Origin: Terriglobia bacterium
Lineage (GTDB): Bacteria; Acidobacteriota; Terriglobia; Acidiferrales; UBA7541
Length of the DNA: 64,000 bases
Reading direction: 5' to 3'
NCBI GenBank assembly: GCA_020072785.1
Contig: JAIQGG010000002.1
Location: 1-64,000, forward strand
Part shown: piece after piece, positions 1 through 29,658 of the stretch
Layout: every line of letters starts with the position of its first letter
Position numbering within the stretch: the first letter of the stretch is position 1
Notes under the pieces: generated by a model
Seen by the model: only the letters and a program-made list of their open reading frames with translations
Database searches by the model: none
Told to the model about the DNA's origin: nothing
Translations under genes and position numbers: made by a program

Positions 1-1344
1 CCGGCGGGCGGAGCGGTGGTGACGCTGGCGAGCAGCAATACCGCGGCAGCCACGGTGCCGGCCAGCGTGACGGTGGCGGCGGGAGCGACGAGCGCCACGT
101 TCACGGTGACCACCCTGGCGGTGAGTGTAGCGACGCCCGTAACCATCTCCGGAACCTACAACGGGACGCAGGGAGCTACGCTGACGGTAGATCCGCCGGC
201 GGTCACCGTGTCATCTGTTAGCTTGAGTCCGACCGCGGTGACCGGGGGAGCCTCTTCCACCGGGACGGTGACCCTGAGCAGCGCAGCTCCGGCGGGCGGA
301 GCGGTGGTGACGCTGGCGAGCAGCAATACCGCGGCAGCCACGGTGCCGGCCAGCGTGACGGTGGCGGCGGGAGCGACGAGCGCCACGTTCACGGTGACCA
401 CGATTCCGGTGGCGGTCAACACGACGGTAAGTATTTCCGCCACGCTCAATGGCACGACAAAGTCTGTGAATTTGACAGTCAGAGCGGCAGCTCTCTCTTC
501 GGTCTCACTCAGTCCAAACAACCCAGTCGGGGGAGCAGTGTCGAGAGGTACGGTGACTTTGAATGGCGCGGCTCCGGCAGGCGGAGCCGTGGTGACGCTC
601 ACGAGCAGCAATACCTCGGCCGCCACAGTGCCGGCCAGCGTGACGGTGGCGGCGGGAGCGACGAGCGCCACGTTCACGGTGACGACGACTCCGGTGGCGG
701 CCAACACGACGGTAAGCATTTCCGCCACGCTCAATGGCACGACAAGGTCTGCGAATTTGACAGTCAGAGCGGCAACTCCCTCCTCGCTCGCGCTCAGCCC
801 ATCCAGCGTAACTGGTGGGACCTCCTCAACCGGTACGGTAACCTTGAATGGCGCGGCTCCGGCTGGTGGAGCCGTGGTGACGCTGACGAGCAGCAACACC
901 TCGGCAGCGACAGTGCCTGCGAGCGTGACGGTGGCGGCGGGAGCGACGAGCGCCACGTTCACGGTGACCACGACTCCGGTGGCGGCCAGCACGACGGTTA
1001 CTATTTCTGCTGCGCTAAACGGCACGACTAGGAATGCGAGCTTGACGGTCTCTCGGCCGACTCCCTCTTCGCTCACGCTCAGTCCATCCAGCGTAACCGG
1101 CGGGACCTCCTCCACCGGTACGGTAACCCTGAATGGCGCGGCTCCAGCTGGTGGGGCAGTGGTGACGCTCACGAGCAACAAAACTTCGGTAGCTACGGTG
1201 CCGGCCAGCGTGACGGTGGCGGCGGGAGCGACGAGTGCCACGTTCACGGTGACGACGACTCCGGTGGCGGCCAGCACGACAGTTACCATTTCTGCTGCGC
1301 TAAACGGCACAACTAGGAGCGCGAGCTTGACGGTAACGCCCTGA
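1..1344 (+). CDS. Ig-like repeat surface/secreted protein, 5'-truncated by window edge
   Basis: The reading frame is open from base 1, so the start lies upstream; the 447 codons seen are only the C-terminal part. It is made of five tandem copies (the first incomplete) of a ~95-residue all-beta unit, each with an SSNTxxATVPASVTV core, an AGATSATFTVTT strand and a closing TVxISAxLNGT strand. Such Ser/Thr/Val-rich units are typical of bacterial Ig-like (BIG-type) domains in large surface or secreted adhesins. No anchor or sorting signal follows the last repeat; the protein ends just after it. The open frame on the opposite strand is a by-product of the repeats. The fold class is well supported; the biological role is not known. 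Confidence 0.8.
   Translation, partial: PAGGAVVTLASSNTAAATVPASVTVAAGATSATFTVTTLAVSVATPVTISGTYNGTQGATLTVDPPAVTVSSVSLSPTAVTGGASSTGTVTLSSAAPAGGAVVTLASSNTAAATVPASVTVAAGATSATFTVTTIPVAVNTTVSISATLNGTTKSVNLTVRAAALSSVSLSPNNPVGGAVSRGTVTLNGAAPAGGAVVTLTSSNTSAATVPASVTVAAGATSATFTVTTTPVAANTTVSISATLNGTTRSANLTVRAATPSSLALSPSSVTGGTSSTGTVTLNGAAPAGGAVVTLTSSNTSAATVPASVTVAAGATSATFTVTTTPVAASTTVTISAALNGTTRNASLTVSRPTPSSLTLSPSSVTGGTSSTGTVTLNGAAPAGGAVVTLTSNKTSVATVPASVTVAAGATSATFTVTTTPVAASTTVTISAALNGTTRSASLTVTP
13..1344 (+). repeat. Tandem 285-288 bp coding repeats
   Basis: The repeat phase mark (GCN GTG GTG ACG CT) recurs at 13, 301, 586, 871 and 1156, giving periods of 288, 285, 285 and 285 bp. Stretches such as the one encoding ASVTVAAGATSATFTVTT are nearly identical at the DNA level between copies, indicating recent duplication or gene conversion. 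Confidence 0.9.
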
Positions 1345-8651: not shown

Positions 8652-10112
8652 ATGGCCACTTTCTACATCGAACAGTTCGGCTGCCGCGCCACCCAGGCGG
8701 ACGCCGCGGCCATCGCGCGCCAGTTGTGTGAGCAAGGCTGCTCCCCCGCCGCCGATGCCGCCGCCGCCGTGGTCATCGTGAACACCTGCACGGTCACCGC
8801 CGCGGCCGATGCCCAGGCCCGCGACGCCATCCGCTCCATTCATCGCCGCAATCCCGCCGCGCGCATTATCGTCACCGGCTGCTACGCCCAGCGCGCTCCC
8901 GAAGATCTCGCCGCGCTCCCCGGCGTCCACTGGGTCGTTGGCAATTCCCACAAGCCGGAAATCCCGCGCCTCGCCGCCAGTCTCGCTTCGGCTCCCCAGC
9001 CTCCCGCGGCCGCGCCTGCCTGTGACGGCGCGTTTCTTCCCCTCGCGCAGCTCCTTCCGCAGCCCCCCGCGCACAGCCCCGCCCAGATCCTCACCGGCAG
9101 CATCCTCGATGAGAGCGGCATGCTCGTCGCTCCCGTCTTCGGCGGGGAACCCGGCCCCGATGGCAGCGGGGCCGGCCACACCCGCCCCATCTTGAAGATT
9201 CAGGACGGCTGCAACAGCCGCTGCTCGTTCTGCGTGATCCCCTTCGTGCGCGGCCGCAGCCGCAGCCTCCCGCCCGCCGCCGTCCTCGAGGAAATCCGCA
9301 AGCTGGCCGCGGCGGGCTATCGCGAGGTCGTTCTCAGCGGCATCAATCTCGGCGCCTACGGCCGCGATCTCTCTCCGCGCGTCGAATTCCTCGGCCTCCT
9401 GCGGCAGATCCTCTCCGCAACCCCCCTCGAGCGTCTGCGCGTCAGTTCCATCGAGCCGCTCGACGTCACCGAGGAGCTCATCGCCCTCGTCGCCTCCACC
9501 GCGCGCCTCGCCCAGCACTTCCACATCCCGCTGCAGTCCGGCTCCGACCGCATCCTGGCCGCCATGCACCGCTGGTACCGCGCCGAGCACTATGCCATGC
9601 GCGTCCGGCGCATCCACGAGCGCCTCCCGCACGCCGCTCTCGGCGCCGACGTCATCACCGGTTTTCCCGGCGAAACCCAGGACGACCACGCCGCCACCCT
9701 GGCTTTCCTCCGCGGCCTCCCCTTCACCTATCTCCACGTTTTCTCTTATTCGCCGCGCCCCGGCACGCACGCCGCCGCGCTCCCCGGCCACGTCCCCGCC
9801 GCTGTCATCAAGCGCCGCGCCCGCGAACTCCGCGCCCTCGGCGAAGAAAAAGCTGCCGCCTTTCGCCGCTTCCAGCTCGGCCGCGCCCTGCGCGTCCTCA
9901 CCCTCCATCGCGCCGAAGACGCCGCCCCCGGCGCTACCCCTGCCATCTCCACCAACTACTTGCGCGTCCGCGTCCCCGGCGACTGGCCCTCCAATCACTG
10001 GCTCGATGTCCGGATAATGAGCGAAGAAGGGAACTGCCTGCTGGCGGAAACTGTGGGAAAGCCTGCCTCTGCTGCGTCCTACCCCTCGAAGATCACCTGC
10101 GCCAGCGCCTGA
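8652..10112 (+). CDS. mtaB: tRNA t6A37 methylthiotransferase
   Basis: Radical-SAM enzyme that adds a methylthio group to t6A at position 37 of tRNA (ms2t6A). The N-terminal cluster cysteines are C11 (FGCRATQAD), C46 (NTCTV) and C77 (TGCYAQ); the radical-SAM triad is C187, C191 and C194 (CNSRCSFC). The QLGRALRVL region fits the start of a TRAM-like C-terminus, which looks shortened. 486 aa from the ATG at 8652; the open frame extends farther upstream through the palindrome at 8601 but without homology. The 3' end overlaps the convergent acpS by 34 bp. MiaB and RimO are the alternatives; the GCRATQAD start favours MtaB. Confidence 0.9.
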   Translation: MATFYIEQFGCRATQADAAAIARQLCEQGCSPAADAAAAVVIVNTCTVTAAADAQARDAIRSIHRRNPAARIIVTGCYAQRAPEDLAALPGVHWVVGNSHKPEIPRLAASLASAPQPPAAAPACDGAFLPLAQLLPQPPAHSPAQILTGSILDESGMLVAPVFGGEPGPDGSGAGHTRPILKIQDGCNSRCSFCVIPFVRGRSRSLPPAAVLEEIRKLAAAGYREVVLSGINLGAYGRDLSPRVEFLGLLRQILSATPLERLRVSSIEPLDVTEELIALVASTARLAQHFHIPLQSGSDRILAAMHRWYRAEHYAMRVRRIHERLPHAALGADVITGFPGETQDDHAATLAFLRGLPFTYLHVFSYSPRPGTHAAALPGHVPAAVIKRRARELRALGEEKAAAFRRFQLGRALRVLTLHRAEDAAPGATPAISTNYLRVRVPGDWPSNHWLDVRIMSEEGNCLLAETVGKPASAASYPSKITCASA

Positions 10113-25439: not shown

Positions 25440-25913
25440 TATTCCCTGTAGGGGCGGGGCTTGCCCCGCCCGGGCAGCTCGCCCAGCCTTCTCCGAATTC
25501 CTTGTAGGGGCACGGCACGCCGTGCCCGCCCCCCAGCCTGTAGGCGCGGGGCGGAACTTGTCCCGACTTGGTCGGGAGCCCCGCCCTTTTCGCCCCGCCC
25601 AGGATAGCTCGCCCCGACCTTGTCGGGGCCCTCTTCCTGAACAATCCCAAACCCGCCCCGTCATTCCGAACGGAGCGAAGCGATGTGAGGAATCTCTCTT
25701 CGCTTGCCGGGTGAGCAACTCTCCGCTCCGGGCACAACCCCAGCCCTCTCCGAATTCTTTGTAGGGGCGCGCGCAATGGCCGGGCAACATCCAGCACAAT
25801 GACGGGGTCGGCGGAGTGCGGGGAGGATTCCGCGTCGCGCTCCTGCTCGATGGCCGGGAGCTGAACTTATAGAAGCGGGGCGGAATTTATCCCGACTTGG
25901 TCGGGAGCCCCGC
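25440..25913. repeat. Cluster of TGTAG-headed hairpins and two 39-bp near-identical repeats
   Basis: Hairpins preceded by TGTAG: GGGGCGGGGCTTGCCCCGCC (25450), GGGGCACGGCACGCCGTGCC (25507) and others near 25763. A 39-bp unit (GCGGGGCGGAA...GGTCGGGAGCCCCGC) occurs at 25546-25584 and again at 25875-25913 with two differences. A CGTCATTCCGAACGGAGCG motif is at 25660. No gene is apparent between 25423 and 25913. Confidence 0.8.
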
Positions 25914-26063
25914 AATCAATCCGCAGGTGAACACGGCGGCGCGCCGCGGCGAGATGCGGTTCTGGGCGAGGAGCAGGTAGAGTTCGCTGAGGGAATGATG
26001 GATGCCGGCGGCGGTTCGGAAGTCATCGGAATGGCCGGTGAGCGCGGCGGCGAGTCTAGGCCA
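25914..26063 (-). pseudogene. Remnant of a gene related to the 29209-29658 gene
   Basis: The minus strand reads LAAALTGHSDDFRT...SLSELYLLLAQNRISPRRAAVF for about 50 codons without a start; it begins after a stop and is cut off exactly at the edge of the 39-bp repeat ending at 25913. It aligns with the 29209 gene product (DFLSALLVHLAHNRISARRAAVL). The 5' part with the Cys-rich motif and the 3' end are missing, so this is a truncated paralogue. Confidence 0.75.
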
Positions 26064-26116
26064 CTAATAGGTGTCAAAAGAAGACTGATCTGAATGTCAT
26101 GCTTCCTGCAAATGTT

Positions 26117-26356
26117 TTATCGCTTTCTTTTCGAGCGAGTCTTGCCTTTGATTCCATGTTTCACAAATTTGCCATCCAGTCTTTCCCAACTCATGTGAAA
26201 CGCTTTCTTGCTATCGCTCTTCTGCATCCATTCTACGCCGCCCTTAGAAATGCGCAGGCGACCGAAAGCTTGACCATTCTCTTTGACACGAAAAACTACA
26301 TCGACCTTGGGTACGTCTAGTGCCGGCGTCCGGAATTCAACTGAATGTCGTGCCAT
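26117..26356 (-). CDS. Small conserved protein of unknown function
   Basis: 79 aa: MARHSVEFRTPALDVPKVDV, then VFRVKENGQAFGRLRISKGGVEW and a very basic tail (KHGIKGKTRSKRKR). The pattern of two beta strands then GxLRISKGGVxW recurs in small proteins of unknown function, often seen next to accessory or phage-type genes. AGGAGAG is 8 nt before the ATG at 26356. It lies just downstream of the Z1 ATPase gene (30 bp) on the same strand and is probably cotranscribed. The basic tail suggests nucleic-acid binding; this is inference. Confidence 0.7.
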   Translation of the reverse strand: MARHSVEFRTPALDVPKVDVVFRVKENGQAFGRLRISKGGVEWMQKSDSKKAFHMSWERLDGKFVKHGIKGKTRSKRKR

Positions 26357-26385
26357 ATGAAAGTCTCTCCTTGTAGCTATCACAG

Positions 26386-28599
26386 TTAGGTTGCTGGAGC
26401 AGAAGAACTTGAGGGACTGCCACTCCTTCCTGCGAGAGGAATTGCCGCGTCCGCCGCCGGCGTTTCGGCAGCGAAGACAGACGTGACGGCGTCACGAGGC
26501 ACTACGATGACTGGCCACCAGAAAGGCAGTCCGCGCCACCCCTTCGCTTCGGTTCCGTTTTGTCGCATCATCATGAGCACCGGGACACTCTTGGCCTTGT
26601 CATATGCAAAATCAGCCTGCTGCTTCGTATCTGGCGCGTTCGAGAAACGTCCCTCTGCACGCATTCTCGCAACGTCGCGATCCGAAGCCGCGATCAGGAA
26701 TACCTGGTCCTTGTATGCGAGATCCTTCGCCTGTTTCGATAGGTGTTCAAGCGCGGCGATGTGAGCACGCCGATCATCTTCGTGCTCCTCATCAAATGCC
26801 AAGTTTTCGTACGCCAATTCCAAGAGCTTCACTGCAGTGTCCAGGGGAATGAGTCCGTTGCCGTCCAGACTGCCAACCAGAGTTCCAATTCTTTGATCTA
26901 GCTGATCAAGCTTTTTCTTTCCCACAGACATGGCTACAGTTTGGAAGCCAATGGGGAGCAAGCGGCGACCTGGGCGCACCGATGTCAGCTTGGAAAACAT
27001 TAGTTTGTTCGGTGAGCAAGGCATCAAGCGGTCCGTAATATCCCGGCGAATAAAATACACGCCGCGATCATGCGCGCCACTCAAGAAGGCATCACGCAGG
27101 GCTGAGTCAAATTCGTGAATCCTCTGCATGACCTGATAGATATGCCGAGGAGCGTAAAACCTGGTGACAGAGAGATCTTCCTTAGGACGCGCTCCGTACA
27201 TGCGCGAATGTTGAAGAACAGTGTCCTGTTGGAACTTTTGAGGATTGCGGCCGTAATAGAATCCGATCAGGTTCGCGATGGTGATTCCTCGGTCGAGAAT
27301 TTGACCACCGATGTAAATGTTCATTGGGGTGCGGAGTTTCAGTTGCCCTTTGTCGTCGAGTAGTTCTGCGACATCCTTGTCTGAGTTCACCTTGGTAATC
27401 ATCAGAAAGCCGTCAGTGAGGGCCCGGCGGACAGCAGCCGCGCACGTCGCGAAATCGGGCATAGTGTCCCCGCCTAATGTCATAGACCGTTTCAAGTCGT
27501 CGTAGGATTCTCTGAGGATTAAATCTAAGCGGGGATTGTTCTTCTGCGCCGCCTCAACGAGTTGGTCCCGAATGGCAGTAACAACCTCCTCCTGCCAATC
27601 GTGCGATTTCCGTGCCTGTTCAGTATGAAAAAGGAAGCTATACTTCCTGGTCGGCTGGCCGCTCTCTTGTTGTTGAATCCGGCGAATTGCAGCTCCCATG
27701 ACAAAATTGACGATTGCCAATCGCAGAATGGTCACGTTCTTTTCGTTCAGGATATCCTCAATCTTTAGGCGTCGGCGATCTTCCAGCTTCAGCGCGTCCC
27801 GCTCCGGCACCGACACGTCCTCGTAGAAATAGAATGCTGTGGAGTCCGGGTCGCTGCTCTTCTCAAAATAGTAGTCACCGCCAACGTAATCGGGGTGCGT
27901 AGGAAGAATCTCAGTGAACGCGGGTCTCTTGGGCAAGAAGAGTGGATTGCCGTTTCGGACCGCAGCTTCCTCAGGCTGCAGATAGAGCGAATATGGCGTA
28001 GCCGTTACTTGAAGGAAGCTCGAAGACCGCACTACCTTCCGAAGATTGTCAATCTGGCCGGCGATGACACCAACAGTGACGATGCCTTCTTTTCTGCGAA
28101 ATGTGAGTGAGGCGAAATCGGCCTCGTCGTCGATAATAAGTACCTTCTTCTCCCGAAGCGCAGGAAAATCTGCGAATGCCTTGAGGAGTCGGCGTAGGTT
28201 GTCGTCTTCCTTTTTCACCACAAAGATCAGTTTATGACCAAGCTCGTAGGGAGTGAGCTGGGGAAGTGCCATGATGTCGAATACATGGACAGAATCCACG
28301 TCATCTGCTAGGAAGGGAGCGAAATCCTTCTGCACACGATTGAGAGTTTGCTTAGCAAGTGAAACCGTCCCTTTTGTCAGAATCACCGCAACGTCATAAT
28401 CCTTGTCGAAAGCCGAGGCGATAACTCCCAAAAACGCGCGAGTCTTGCCACTCTGGATTTTGCCTAAAAGGATTCCGGGGCGCTGTGCGGAAGTTTCTTC
28501 TCGCAGCAGTTGCTGGACGGTTCGTTCAACGCACTCCCTTAGTTCAGGTGCATCATTACGATTCAGAGCAATCTGTTGATACATCGTCCCGTTACTCAT
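26386..28599 (-). CDS. Z1-domain superfamily 2 helicase-like ATPase, putative defence protein
   Basis: 737 aa. Walker A GKIQSGKT (46-53), Walker B IIDDEAD (155-161), motif III VTATPYS (198-204), and in the C-terminal half the Z1 signature YIGGQILDRGITIANLIGF with DTVLQHSRMYGAR, corresponding to helicase motifs V/VI. Z1 proteins are known from restriction-like and MORC-associated clusters with methyltransferases and PD-(D/E)XK nucleases; none of those partners is present here. The start is the ATG at 28599 with GGGGAG 10 nt upstream; a TTG six codons earlier lies on that ribosome site. Low GC compared with flanking core genes marks it as acquired. It ends in a Ser/Ala-rich tail. Confidence 0.85.
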   Translation of the reverse strand: MSNGTMYQQIALNRNDAPELRECVERTVQQLLREETSAQRPGILLGKIQSGKTRAFLGVIASAFDKDYDVAVILTKGTVSLAKQTLNRVQKDFAPFLADDVDSVHVFDIMALPQLTPYELGHKLIFVVKKEDDNLRRLLKAFADFPALREKKVLIIDDEADFASLTFRRKEGIVTVGVIAGQIDNLRKVVRSSSFLQVTATPYSLYLQPEEAAVRNGNPLFLPKRPAFTEILPTHPDYVGGDYYFEKSSDPDSTAFYFYEDVSVPERDALKLEDRRRLKIEDILNEKNVTILRLAIVNFVMGAAIRRIQQQESGQPTRKYSFLFHTEQARKSHDWQEEVVTAIRDQLVEAAQKNNPRLDLILRESYDDLKRSMTLGGDTMPDFATCAAAVRRALTDGFLMITKVNSDKDVAELLDDKGQLKLRTPMNIYIGGQILDRGITIANLIGFYYGRNPQKFQQDTVLQHSRMYGARPKEDLSVTRFYAPRHIYQVMQRIHEFDSALRDAFLSGAHDRGVYFIRRDITDRLMPCSPNKLMFSKLTSVRPGRRLLPIGFQTVAMSVGKKKLDQLDQRIGTLVGSLDGNGLIPLDTAVKLLELAYENLAFDEEHEDDRRAHIAALEHLSKQAKDLAYKDQVFLIAASDRDVARMRAEGRFSNAPDTKQQADFAYDKAKSVPVLMMMRQNGTEAKGWRGLPFWWPVIVVPRDAVTSVFAAETPAADAAIPLAGRSGSPSSSSAPAT

Positions 28600-28793
28600 A
28601 TTCGTATTACTCCCCAAGCCAAGCTGGGCGTACTCTCTCTGTAAAGCTCATCGTCCACACTGGTGTGCAAAGAGAGACGGCGGCCCGCGCCGATTTGTCC
28701 GACAATCATGCCCACCCTGACGCGCATGCCGCGAAGACAGGCCTTTCCACCCAAAACCCCAGCCTCCTGGGTGATGCGGTCGAATGCTGTCAT
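28596..28793 (-). CDS. DUF433-like antitoxin-type protein, C-terminally altered
   Basis: 65 aa. FDRITQEAGVLGGKACLRGMRVRVGMIVGQI matches the N-terminal two-thirds of DUF433 proteins, small putative DNA-binding antitoxins usually paired with a DUF5615 PIN-like toxin. After GQIGAG the expected EEILxDYPxLxxEDIxxAL helices are missing and the sequence is unrelated, so the gene looks truncated by recombination with the Z1 gene, whose start it overlaps by 4 bp. GAGGG sits 5 nt before the ATG. No toxin gene is nearby. Confidence 0.6.
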   Translation of the reverse strand: MTAFDRITQEAGVLGGKACLRGMRVRVGMIVGQIGAGRRLSLHTSVDDELYRESTPSLAWGVIRI

Positions 28794-28893
28794 TCGTCCC
28801 TCTCGTCGGAGCTCATCTTGGCTTCAGATTATCATTCTATTTCTTCATTTGTTTGGAATTTGAATGATTCACTGGATGAGTTTCCTTCATCAT

Positions 28894-28939
28894 CCATTCG
28901 AACGTACTACCGCAGACCATTCGAAAGTAGTACCATAGA
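28894..28939. repeat. Tandem 23-bp repeat upstream of the Z1/DUF433 genes
   Basis: Two copies (28894-28916, 28917-28939) share CCATTCGAA-GTA-TACC and 18 of 23 bases. They lie between the divergent DUF433/Z1 genes and the + strand promoter at 28948, a natural place for regulator binding. Confidence 0.7.
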
Positions 28940-28947
28940 GTAATCTA

Positions 28948-28976
28948 TTGACACTCTAACTATCCCATGCTAACAT
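28948..28976 (+). promoter_or_regulatory. Promoter for the 29209 gene
   Basis: TTGACA (28948-28953), 17-bp spacer, TAACAT (28971-28976). This leaves a leader of about 225 nt before the ATG at 29209. The gap 28794-29208 otherwise holds the 23-bp repeat and one arm of a dispersed repeat. Confidence 0.65.
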
Positions 28977-29145
28977 GGCGCGTGCTCCCCGCCCCCAGCC
29001 CCGCCGCCACGCCTGCTTGGCATGTAATTCTTCACTCGCCACTCGTCTCTCGCCACTTCATCTCCCTTTCTTCTCAATCTCTTGCGCACTCTTCCGCTCT
29101 TCCAAGAACAGGAGCGCGCTCCAACCCTTTTGCCTTCATCGTCTT

Positions 29146-29183
29146 CCGCACTCTTTGCAAAAACACCCGGGGTGGGCACCCCC
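29146..29183. repeat. Dispersed repeat, direct-orientation copy
   Basis: CCGCACTCTTTG...AAAA.CACCCGGGGTGGGCACCCCC. A copy in opposite orientation lies at 33433-33472, 4.3 kb away, enclosing the 29209 gene, purB, efp and the Xaa-Pro peptidase gene. Confidence 0.65.
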
Positions 29184-29208
29184 GCCCCCCGCTTCATCGA
29201 GGAGCCTT

Positions 29209-29658
29209 ATGACCCACAAATCCGCTAACCACCACTCGCAACAGAACTTGCCCCGCTGCCAATACCACTCGCCCTCCGGCCGCCGCTGCCGTTTCCCCGT
29301 CTCGGACGCCCGCTCCCCGCACTGTCTCCGCCACGCCTCGCGCCTCGCCCAGCCGCGTTCCGCCGCGCCTGCCGGGCTCGATGCCGGCCTCAGCTCCGTT
29401 CTTCCCACGGACCCTGCCGCCTTCAAATCCCCCTCTCAAATCAATGACTTCCTCTCCGCGCTCCTCGTCCATCTCGCGCACAACCGCATCTCCGCGCGCC
29501 GCGCCGCCGTCCTGGCTTACATCACCAACCAGCTCCTCCGCACCCTCCCGGCCATCGAGAAGGAACTCGAAGCACAATCGCCCGAAGACCCACCCGGCAC
29601 CAAGGTCATATTGGATCTTCCCCGCCCGGAGCGCTTGGAGTCCAACCAGCCCTCATGA
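29209..29658 (+). CDS. Conserved protein of unknown function with Cys-rich N-terminus
   Basis: 149 aa. RCQYHSPSGRRCRFPVSDARSPHCLRH near the N-terminus contains a Cys/His arrangement that could bind a metal ion; the C-terminal half (INDFLSALLVHLAHNRISARRAAVLAYITNQLLRTLPAIEKEL) is helical. I associate this layout with small proteins seen repeatedly in Acidobacteriota genomes, function unknown. GAGGAG is 5 nt before the ATG at 29209. The open frame extends upstream to 28975, but that part is low-complexity. A truncated paralogue lies at 25914-26063, on the other side of the Z1 island. Its stop overlaps an open frame leading to purB. Confidence 0.75.
   Translation: MTHKSANHHSQQNLPRCQYHSPSGRRCRFPVSDARSPHCLRHASRLAQPRSAAPAGLDAGLSSVLPTDPAAFKSPSQINDFLSALLVHLAHNRISARRAAVLAYITNQLLRTLPAIEKELEAQSPEDPPGTKVILDLPRPERLESNQPS

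Follow-up and report, generated by a model that had tools for sequence, protein, structure and literature searches.

A stand-alone DEAD-Z1 ATPase gene in an exchange slot of a Terriglobia genome, a possible portable motor of restriction-type defence

The window analysed here is a stretch of 64,000 nucleotides (positions 1 to 64,000 of contig JAIQGG010000002.1, assembly GCA_020072785.1) from a Terriglobia bacterium of the phylum Acidobacteriota. In an insert low in guanine plus cytosine (GC) it carries three co-directional minus-strand open reading frames (ORFs), which encode a DUF433-like product of 65 amino acids (aa), a DEAD-Z1 ATPase and a basic protein of 79 aa (Table 1). The Z1 gene is both real and intact, and it was imported into a slot that exchanges its cargo. 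The preferred reading, to which a probability of about 0.4 is given, is that it encodes a mobile accessory motor of restriction-type defence which acts in trans with resident systems. The observations behind this reading are the intact motifs and conserved full-length fold of the protein, the defence-type neighbourhoods of its relatives, their partner switching and solo copies, and the exchange at the slot. As the relatives often stand alone or swap partners, the gene probably serves defence as a portable part, and not as half of a dedicated two-gene system.

The characterised DEAD-Z1 ATPases found in the literature are dedicated subunits of CglI-like enzymes only, and a literature search, thin on subscription papers, returned nothing on stand-alone Z1 proteins or on the family of the 79-aa protein. 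If the preferred reading is true, a restriction enzyme can have a motor that is shared and exchanged between systems, found in a large sister clade whose members are solo in about a quarter of the classifiable loci and join many unrelated restriction and DISARM systems in others, and annotation pipelines would have grounds to list solo Z1 genes as candidates for defence instead of debris.

Table 1. Coordinates of the insert, its genes and motifs, and the adjoining right flank (window positions).
Feature	Coordinates	Strand	Basis
Low-GC insert	26061-28893		GC and comparison with the sister genome G007
79-aa basic protein gene, stop included	26117-26356	-	ORF; family of homologues
DEAD-Z1 ATPase gene, 737 aa from ATG 28599, stop included	26386-28599	-	Pfam, PADLOC, alignment, AlphaFold
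Z1 domain PF10593	27085-27726	-	Pfam
Walker B DDEAD	28117-28131	-	Sequence
Walker A GKIQSGKT	28441-28464	-	Sequence
65-aa DUF433-like ORF, degenerate or truncated	28596-28793	-	PF04255
Two 23-bp direct repeats	28894-28939		Conserved right flank, outside the insert
Sigma70-like promoter TTGACA-17-TAACAT of the flanking gene 28975-29658	28948-28976	+	Also conserved in G007

An intact Z1 gene in a slot upstream of purB

The first-pass annotation of this DNA had pointed to a full-length Z1 protein with intact Walker A and B motifs, and this was borne out by a full-length alignment with 42 relatives, in which the window protein retains 122 of the 123 columns that are at least 95% conserved. Over 43 sequences, G46 and Q49-T53 of Walker A and D157-D161 of Walker B are invariant, and K47 is present in at least 90%. 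An alternative TTG start at 28617 would give a protein of 743 aa (26386-28617, minus strand), and in the numbering from this start the Pfam Z1 domain covers residues 298-511 (E 2.8e-22, 79.9 bits against a cut-off of 25); the Pfam DEAD match is sub-threshold. The PADLOC family Helicase_II ('Type II helicase domain protein') matches residues 21-711 (E 1.1e-64), and the NCBIfam match is a weak one to MzaC (NF041933; E 2.9e-16, 58.7 bits against a cut-off of 1500). A confident AlphaFold model made from 43 sequences reached a predicted local distance difference test (pLDDT) score of 85 and a predicted template modelling (pTM) score of 0.80. The best-scoring PDB structure is that of HsdR, the motor subunit of EcoR124I, a type I enzyme (E 3e-9), and superfamily 2 (SF2) motors of the RIG-I/MDA5 type come next; the global template modelling (TM) scores are low (about 0.3), so that the proteins have a motor core in common but are not equivalent. 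The Z1 protein appears to be a nucleic-acid-stimulated ATPase with two RecA domains (SF2, DEAD-type), to which a Z1 and a C-terminal domain are joined. A similarity of residues 225-277 to AcrIF7 (E 0.037 in 177,635 sequences) was taken as chance.

The insert was delimited by composition and by comparison with the closest genome found (G007), whose adjacent purB-like protein is 98% identical. Low GC had been remarked on at first pass, and the value for the insert is indeed 0.517, against 0.66 in the left flank, 0.62 in the right flank and 0.63 in the whole window; the lowest-GC windows of 2833 bp in the whole 64 kb fall within it. The left flank is homologous to G007 as far as 25465 (75%), and the right flank from 28894 onwards (90%). 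The latter position fixes the right edge; the left edge is approximate, with the drop in GC near 26060. At the corresponding place G007 has a different low-GC segment of 3.3 kb (locus L175, 5796-9104) with matches to MTase_II (E 3.8e-131) and REase_II (E 1.3e-68) and two small ORFs, and other members of the genus have still other genes upstream of purB. Since G007 and the genus members carry different genes here, the place exchanges cargo: it is a recurrent exchange site upstream of purB, and in G007 it holds a restriction system.

To the right of the cargo, conservation begins in both genomes with the 23-bp repeats and the TTGACA box, and as these recur in G007 next to different cargo, both belong to the flank. 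The tandem repeats reported at first pass therefore exist as two copies, but these are 83% alike, lie outside the insert and are absent from the Tandem Repeats Finder (TRF) list. A promoter scan of the insert gave 2 sites against a shuffle mean of 2.0, which is no excess. No ORF of the window matched any of 20 reference defence proteins (E 1e-3; cytosine methylases were not searched for genome-wide), and in this comparison no linked DNA methylase was recognised at the locus.

Relatives, their partners and their solo copies

The clade of the window protein was surveyed through 82 loci, 80 from genomes and two from viral contigs. A search with an alignment of two members as query yielded at least 284 relatives, of which the best 80 were kept; these were picked with conserved peptide patterns (41-62% identity, full length) and span Acidobacteria, Verrucomicrobia, Proteobacteria, Bacilli, candidate phyla and others. 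A viral scan with the single Z1 protein gave no match, and one with the alignment gave 11 loci. Close to the host the gene is rare: 3 of 61 related genomes matched the window Z1 at E 1e-3, its own included, and in a phylum sample 10 of 396 genomes had a Z1 match at E 1e-10, of which four belong to this clade by inspection (the host G000, G415, G165 and G429); the copies in G165 and G429 are fragments, the former at a contig edge. The host genome has one Z1 gene only. In a quick tree of 87 rows with a distant outgroup, the window protein lies inside a set of nine supported at 99%, and the 84 clade rows, the window included, are separated by a branch length of 4.2 from three CglI-type outgroup rows.

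Restriction, DISARM or other defence-like genes neighbour Z1 in 51 of the 69 classifiable loci, the flanks of the other 13 being too short for judgement. A type III methylase, a BPTD_3080 nuclease or both are found beside it in 20 of the 82 (L085 and L087 with the methylase only, L109 with fragments, 18 with NF046055-like matches), and DISARM-type DrmD in two further loci. Type III Res was seen in three, an MvaI/BcnI nuclease with methylase likewise in three, and a Dcm-type methylase, in some cases with Vsr, in 11 (the methylase being 3.5-7 kb off in L039, L042, L048 and L074). In twelve loci the neighbours are restriction or defence-like genes of further kinds (Mrr, type I, IIG, HEC-07 and others), a class that includes the weak cases L077, with its methylase 6.7 kb off, and L084, as well as L044, L069, L083, L093, L102 and L105, which were moved there from the solo class after tracing. 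The remaining 18 loci, from 10 genera, have no recognised partner (L066 is counted here despite a left flank of 2.2 kb). The first-pass statement that Z1 proteins normally sit in multi-gene clusters is thus true only in part for this clade, with 18 of 69 classifiable loci solo, and its suspicion of a defence function is supported by context, namely these 51 loci, the phage and prophage settings of L158 and L157 (see below) and the restriction pair in the sister slot.

Genes in the loci were called as longest ORFs, without a gene finder, and the Z1 ORF of L101 is shortened. The labels MTase_III, BPTD_3080, type III Res, DrmD, N6_N4 methylase, MvaI/BcnI, UvrD, PC4, HmaB, HmaC and type IIG come from searches, and those of Dcm, Vsr, HsdM and DISARM methylase/PglZ in the reference set from reading the sequence and not from hidden Markov models. 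A selection of 92 neighbours was scanned (at most three genes per side in 20 loci, some dropped), in which 33 PADLOC families gave matches that were incompletely traced; L055, L057 and L058 were excluded from it and were classed by the reference scan and by synteny with L054.

On the tree, partner labels (BPTD/type III methylase, DISARM, type III, MvaI, Dcm or solo) were counted over 58 rows, which are 57 clade loci and L018 of G415. They change at least 17 times, against 25-34 changes (mean 30.7) in 100 shuffles: the type of partner is in part inherited and frequently replaced.

The main rival explanation is that of an autonomous single-gene defence, in which the DEAD-Z1 protein would sense invading DNA by its own helicase and Z1 domains and remodel it or block its replication with no nuclease partner. 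The 18 solo loci speak for it, nine of which are Halobacillus records with Z1 between housekeeping genes, in two chromosomal places. So does a solo clade member on a viral contig (L158, 104-5946; the contig begins 103 bases before the Z1 gene), which lies directly beside genes that by eye are of the P2-type portal, terminase and scaffold-like kinds. The neighbourhood of phage portal and terminase genes is a place where phages carry anti-phage genes. Autonomy is nevertheless somewhat unlikely, given the 51 loci with partners and the incomplete tracing of PADLOC matches, which leaves room for unrecognised partners in some solo loci; moreover, the characterised relatives need an R subunit for DNA recognition and cutting (PMC4267653).

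In seven of the Halobacillus records (L054-L060) Z1 occupies one place, downstream of a DUF1232 gene (PF06803 in L057), and in five of the seven it is upstream of the same protein of 810-824 aa. At a prophage end (L157, 2345-12392), a tail-like gene, a BPTD_3080 nuclease, a methylase, a divergent helix-turn-helix (HTH)-Z1 gene and an integrase make up a complete cargo cassette.

A host methylase/nuclease pair as candidate partner

The H/N-type subunit of the CglI and NgoAVII enzymes consists of DEAD, Z1 and C domains, and its ATP hydrolysis takes place in the presence of the R protein and unmethylated target DNA (PMC4267653). The window Z1 is likewise a DEAD-Z1 ATPase subunit with intact nucleoside triphosphatase motifs, of the same domain order and size, and Neisseria gonorrhoeae records match its residues 18-712 at 24.5% identity. 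In contrast to those subunits, it falls in a separate clade on a long branch and has no recognised cytosine methylase beside it, and the host range and partners of its clade are far wider. The phospholipase D (PLD)-type R subunit (PF09565) had 0 matches in the host genome, the Corynebacterium glutamicum control being positive. The H subunit of CglI was reportedly called a 'DEAD-Z1 helicase-like motor' in a 2018 paper. With the MZA system the window protein shares the Z1 domain of MzaC, but it misses the equivalog cut-off by far, and no partner was recognised among the neighbouring ORFs, in which MutL and AIPR were not scanned for. The idea of a stand-alone version is not a foreign one, since for another ATPase family of such clusters function with unlinked restriction-modification systems was already raised in a 2008 analysis (PMC2292703).

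The host genome (3.73 Mb in 11 contigs, 98.9% complete) carries a BPTD_3080 system, that is, a type III-like methylase with an NF046055 nuclease, the kind in or beside which 20 of the 82 clade members are found. The nuclease is complete, scores 1085 bits against a cut-off of 800 and has the type III methylase upstream (contig C2, 1143419-1149047). This pair has no adjacent Z1 and lies on the same contig as the window Z1, more than 1.1 Mb away. Among five loci compared, it is nearest to L035 and L065 (47-55% identity), and in both the gene that directly precedes the methylase encodes a Z1 of this clade. In the phylum sample the nuclease occurs in 49 of 396 genomes (E 1e-100), namely in three of the four genomes with this Z1 clade against 46 of the 392 others (Fisher p 0.0065, uncorrected for relatedness), and in two of the three co-occurring genomes the genes are physically linked. 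Elsewhere in the host genome, repeat-rich DNA holds one more match to the beginning of BPTD_3080, a fragment (L114 near 8800-10110; G000:C2:1340743-1340850; E 9.9e-5).

In the mechanism proposed, Z1 would hydrolyse ATP on DNA that its partner has marked as foreign, and would move or remodel this DNA so that the partner nuclease can cut it. Here the partner would be unlinked and supplied in trans, most likely by the BPTD_3080 methylase/nuclease pair of the host.

Several points weigh against such an accessory motor acting in trans. Most BPTD_3080 clusters of the phylum sample occur without it: 46 of the 49 genomes lack a Z1 of this clade, which implies that the nuclease does not need the motor. 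Compared with the 80 best of at least 284 relatives, the window Z1 comes nearest to those of the L031 type (62%) and is about 48% identical to that of L065, whereas the host methylase and nuclease are nearest L065, so that a joint arrival is not obvious. The 18 solo loci point toward autonomy, and the function of the whole clade is read from context and homology.

It is also conceivable, though quite unlikely, that Z1 and the 79-aa gene are orphans left from a larger restriction cluster that was lost, the insert being on its way out. The partial alignment of the DUF433 ORF to its profile, a fragmented clade Z1 beside a methylase gene in L026 (G429) and the missing R subunit would fit such decay. 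On the other side, Z1 is full length with its near-invariant columns kept, the 79-aa ORF is intact, runs in the same direction and has a good ribosome-binding-like motif, and the insert holds no trace of a methylase or nuclease. The possibility of a broken module, which had been raised at first pass, finds no support for Z1 itself and is plausible for the DUF433 part.

The reading of Z1 as an accessory motor could be widened to the whole clade as a universal plug-in motor for type I, II, III and IIG restriction, BPTD_3080 and DISARM, which swaps partners, works also solo or in trans from an exchangeable slot, and acts on a target common to all of them, such as a blocked or cut phage DNA end; this extension is rather unlikely.

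The 79-aa protein and the DUF433 reading frame

A dedicated minimal defence module of Z1 and the 79-aa protein had been put forward by the first-pass annotation, with a search for the pair in other genomes as the check. The two genes are co-directional, the ATG of the smaller being 29 bp downstream of the Z1 stop, and share a low GC, and in L065 a homologue of the small protein is directly upstream of Z1, with genes for a type III methylase and a BPTD_3080 nuclease following. This is, however, the one case of adjacency in the 82 clade loci, and it is part of a larger Z1-methylase-BPTD_3080 operon, so that a minimal two-gene module is not supported; in L064 a weak homologue is about 8 kb from Z1. 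In addition, the closest homologue of the small protein (L168, 72% identity) stands between HmaB-like and HmaC-like genes with no Z1 beside it. Such a module is very improbable: the outcome that the first pass had named as refuting it, absence of a conserved linkage or a linkage confined to larger known systems, is largely what was found.

The coding part of the 79-aa gene (26120-26356) is preceded by an AAGGAG motif that by eye is Shine-Dalgarno-like, and its product has 21 K/R against 8 D/E residues and a pI of 11.1. The protein gave no match in Pfam, PADLOC or NCBIfam. An AlphaFold model from two sequences (pLDDT 59) had no PDB match better than E 0.4, and a PC4-like nature, which was considered, finds no support in these fold data; PC4 genes adjoin Z1 in three other loci (L040, L072 and L094). 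By profile search, 10 genomes in the phylum sample of 396 (E 1e-3) and 17 in a class sample of 399 (E 1e-5) have a homologue, each count including the window. Seven homologues (L065, L168, L126, L131, L021, L029 and L125) are the strongest apart from the window protein, with E below 1e-20, and six of them had been in the profile. With P0002 as query no homologues were found on plasmids, with the L065 homologue two records of a single Gordonia plasmid were found, and a phage search gave none.

Members of the family recur beside defence genes of several kinds. Two are in loci of the Hma (DUF499-DUF1156) type: in L126 the homologue comes after HmaB and HmaC (E 0 for both) and before a kinase and a GmrSD_N protein, and in L168 the two Hma matches are partial. 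The window has no HmaB- or HmaC-like gene, HmaA and the remaining genome not having been searched. Others are beside a type IIG enzyme on a Gordonia plasmid (L131), near a CglI-type Z1 with Dcm and Vsr (L021) and near a sub-threshold TIR match (L029). For L125 no named context was recognised, and weaker members (L028, L127, L130 and L169) are among housekeeping genes. A defence link is thus likely for the close branch only and not for the whole family. The 79-aa protein would be a small basic helper, probably nucleic-acid-binding, of a family that recurs by methylase-containing defence systems, and this family may be a further shared component of them.

The description of the DUF433 gene as truncated proved right. 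The ORF matches PF04255 above the cut-off (29.5 against 23.6 bits) through its residues 7-38, over profile positions 1-32 of 56 only, the C-terminal half being unmatched, so that it fails as a full domain; it is the sole DUF433 in the host genome at E <= 0.01. Its TGA overlaps the Z1 ATG (ATGA, 28596-28599), and the Z1 frame upstream of the ATG, beyond a short AG repeat, encodes ...ALQREYAQLGLGSNTN, which resembles the absent DUF433 tail. A frame-shifted DUF433-Z1 fusion or a coupled pair may be suspected from this one sequence, which has no relative with an intact form. In five of the closest relatives (L031, L033, L034, L066 and L157) the Z1 protein is extended at its N terminus by a fused stretch of about 70 residues, which on our own reading looks like an HTH (VSPSAVANWRKRF...); residues 1-150 of L066 gave no Pfam match. 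In L038 an XRE/HigA-like stretch lies within the Z1 ORF. The DUF433 ORF of the window occupies the position of the fused stretch, and could be what is left of an upstream DNA-binding regulator or of an N-terminal domain, comparable to the HTH domains of the closest relatives. No DUF433 homologues were found next to other Z1 genes (phmmer, E 1, in the fetched loci with ORFs down to 30 aa). Regulators of many kinds are common near Z1 genes, and in L083, L085 and L087 a divergent gene, LysR-like by eye, is immediately upstream of Z1.

Left of the insert, the interval between the flanking gene and the insert (25441-25913) is a GC-rich intergenic mosaic with repeats of 32-44 bp. It is followed by a fragment at 25916-26077 (...LAQNRISPRRAAV...) that by eye resembles part of 28975-29658 (...LAHNRISARRAAV...) in the opposite orientation. 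At the start of the window (1-1331), a tandem array with a 285-bp unit in 4.7 copies lies within a long ORF.

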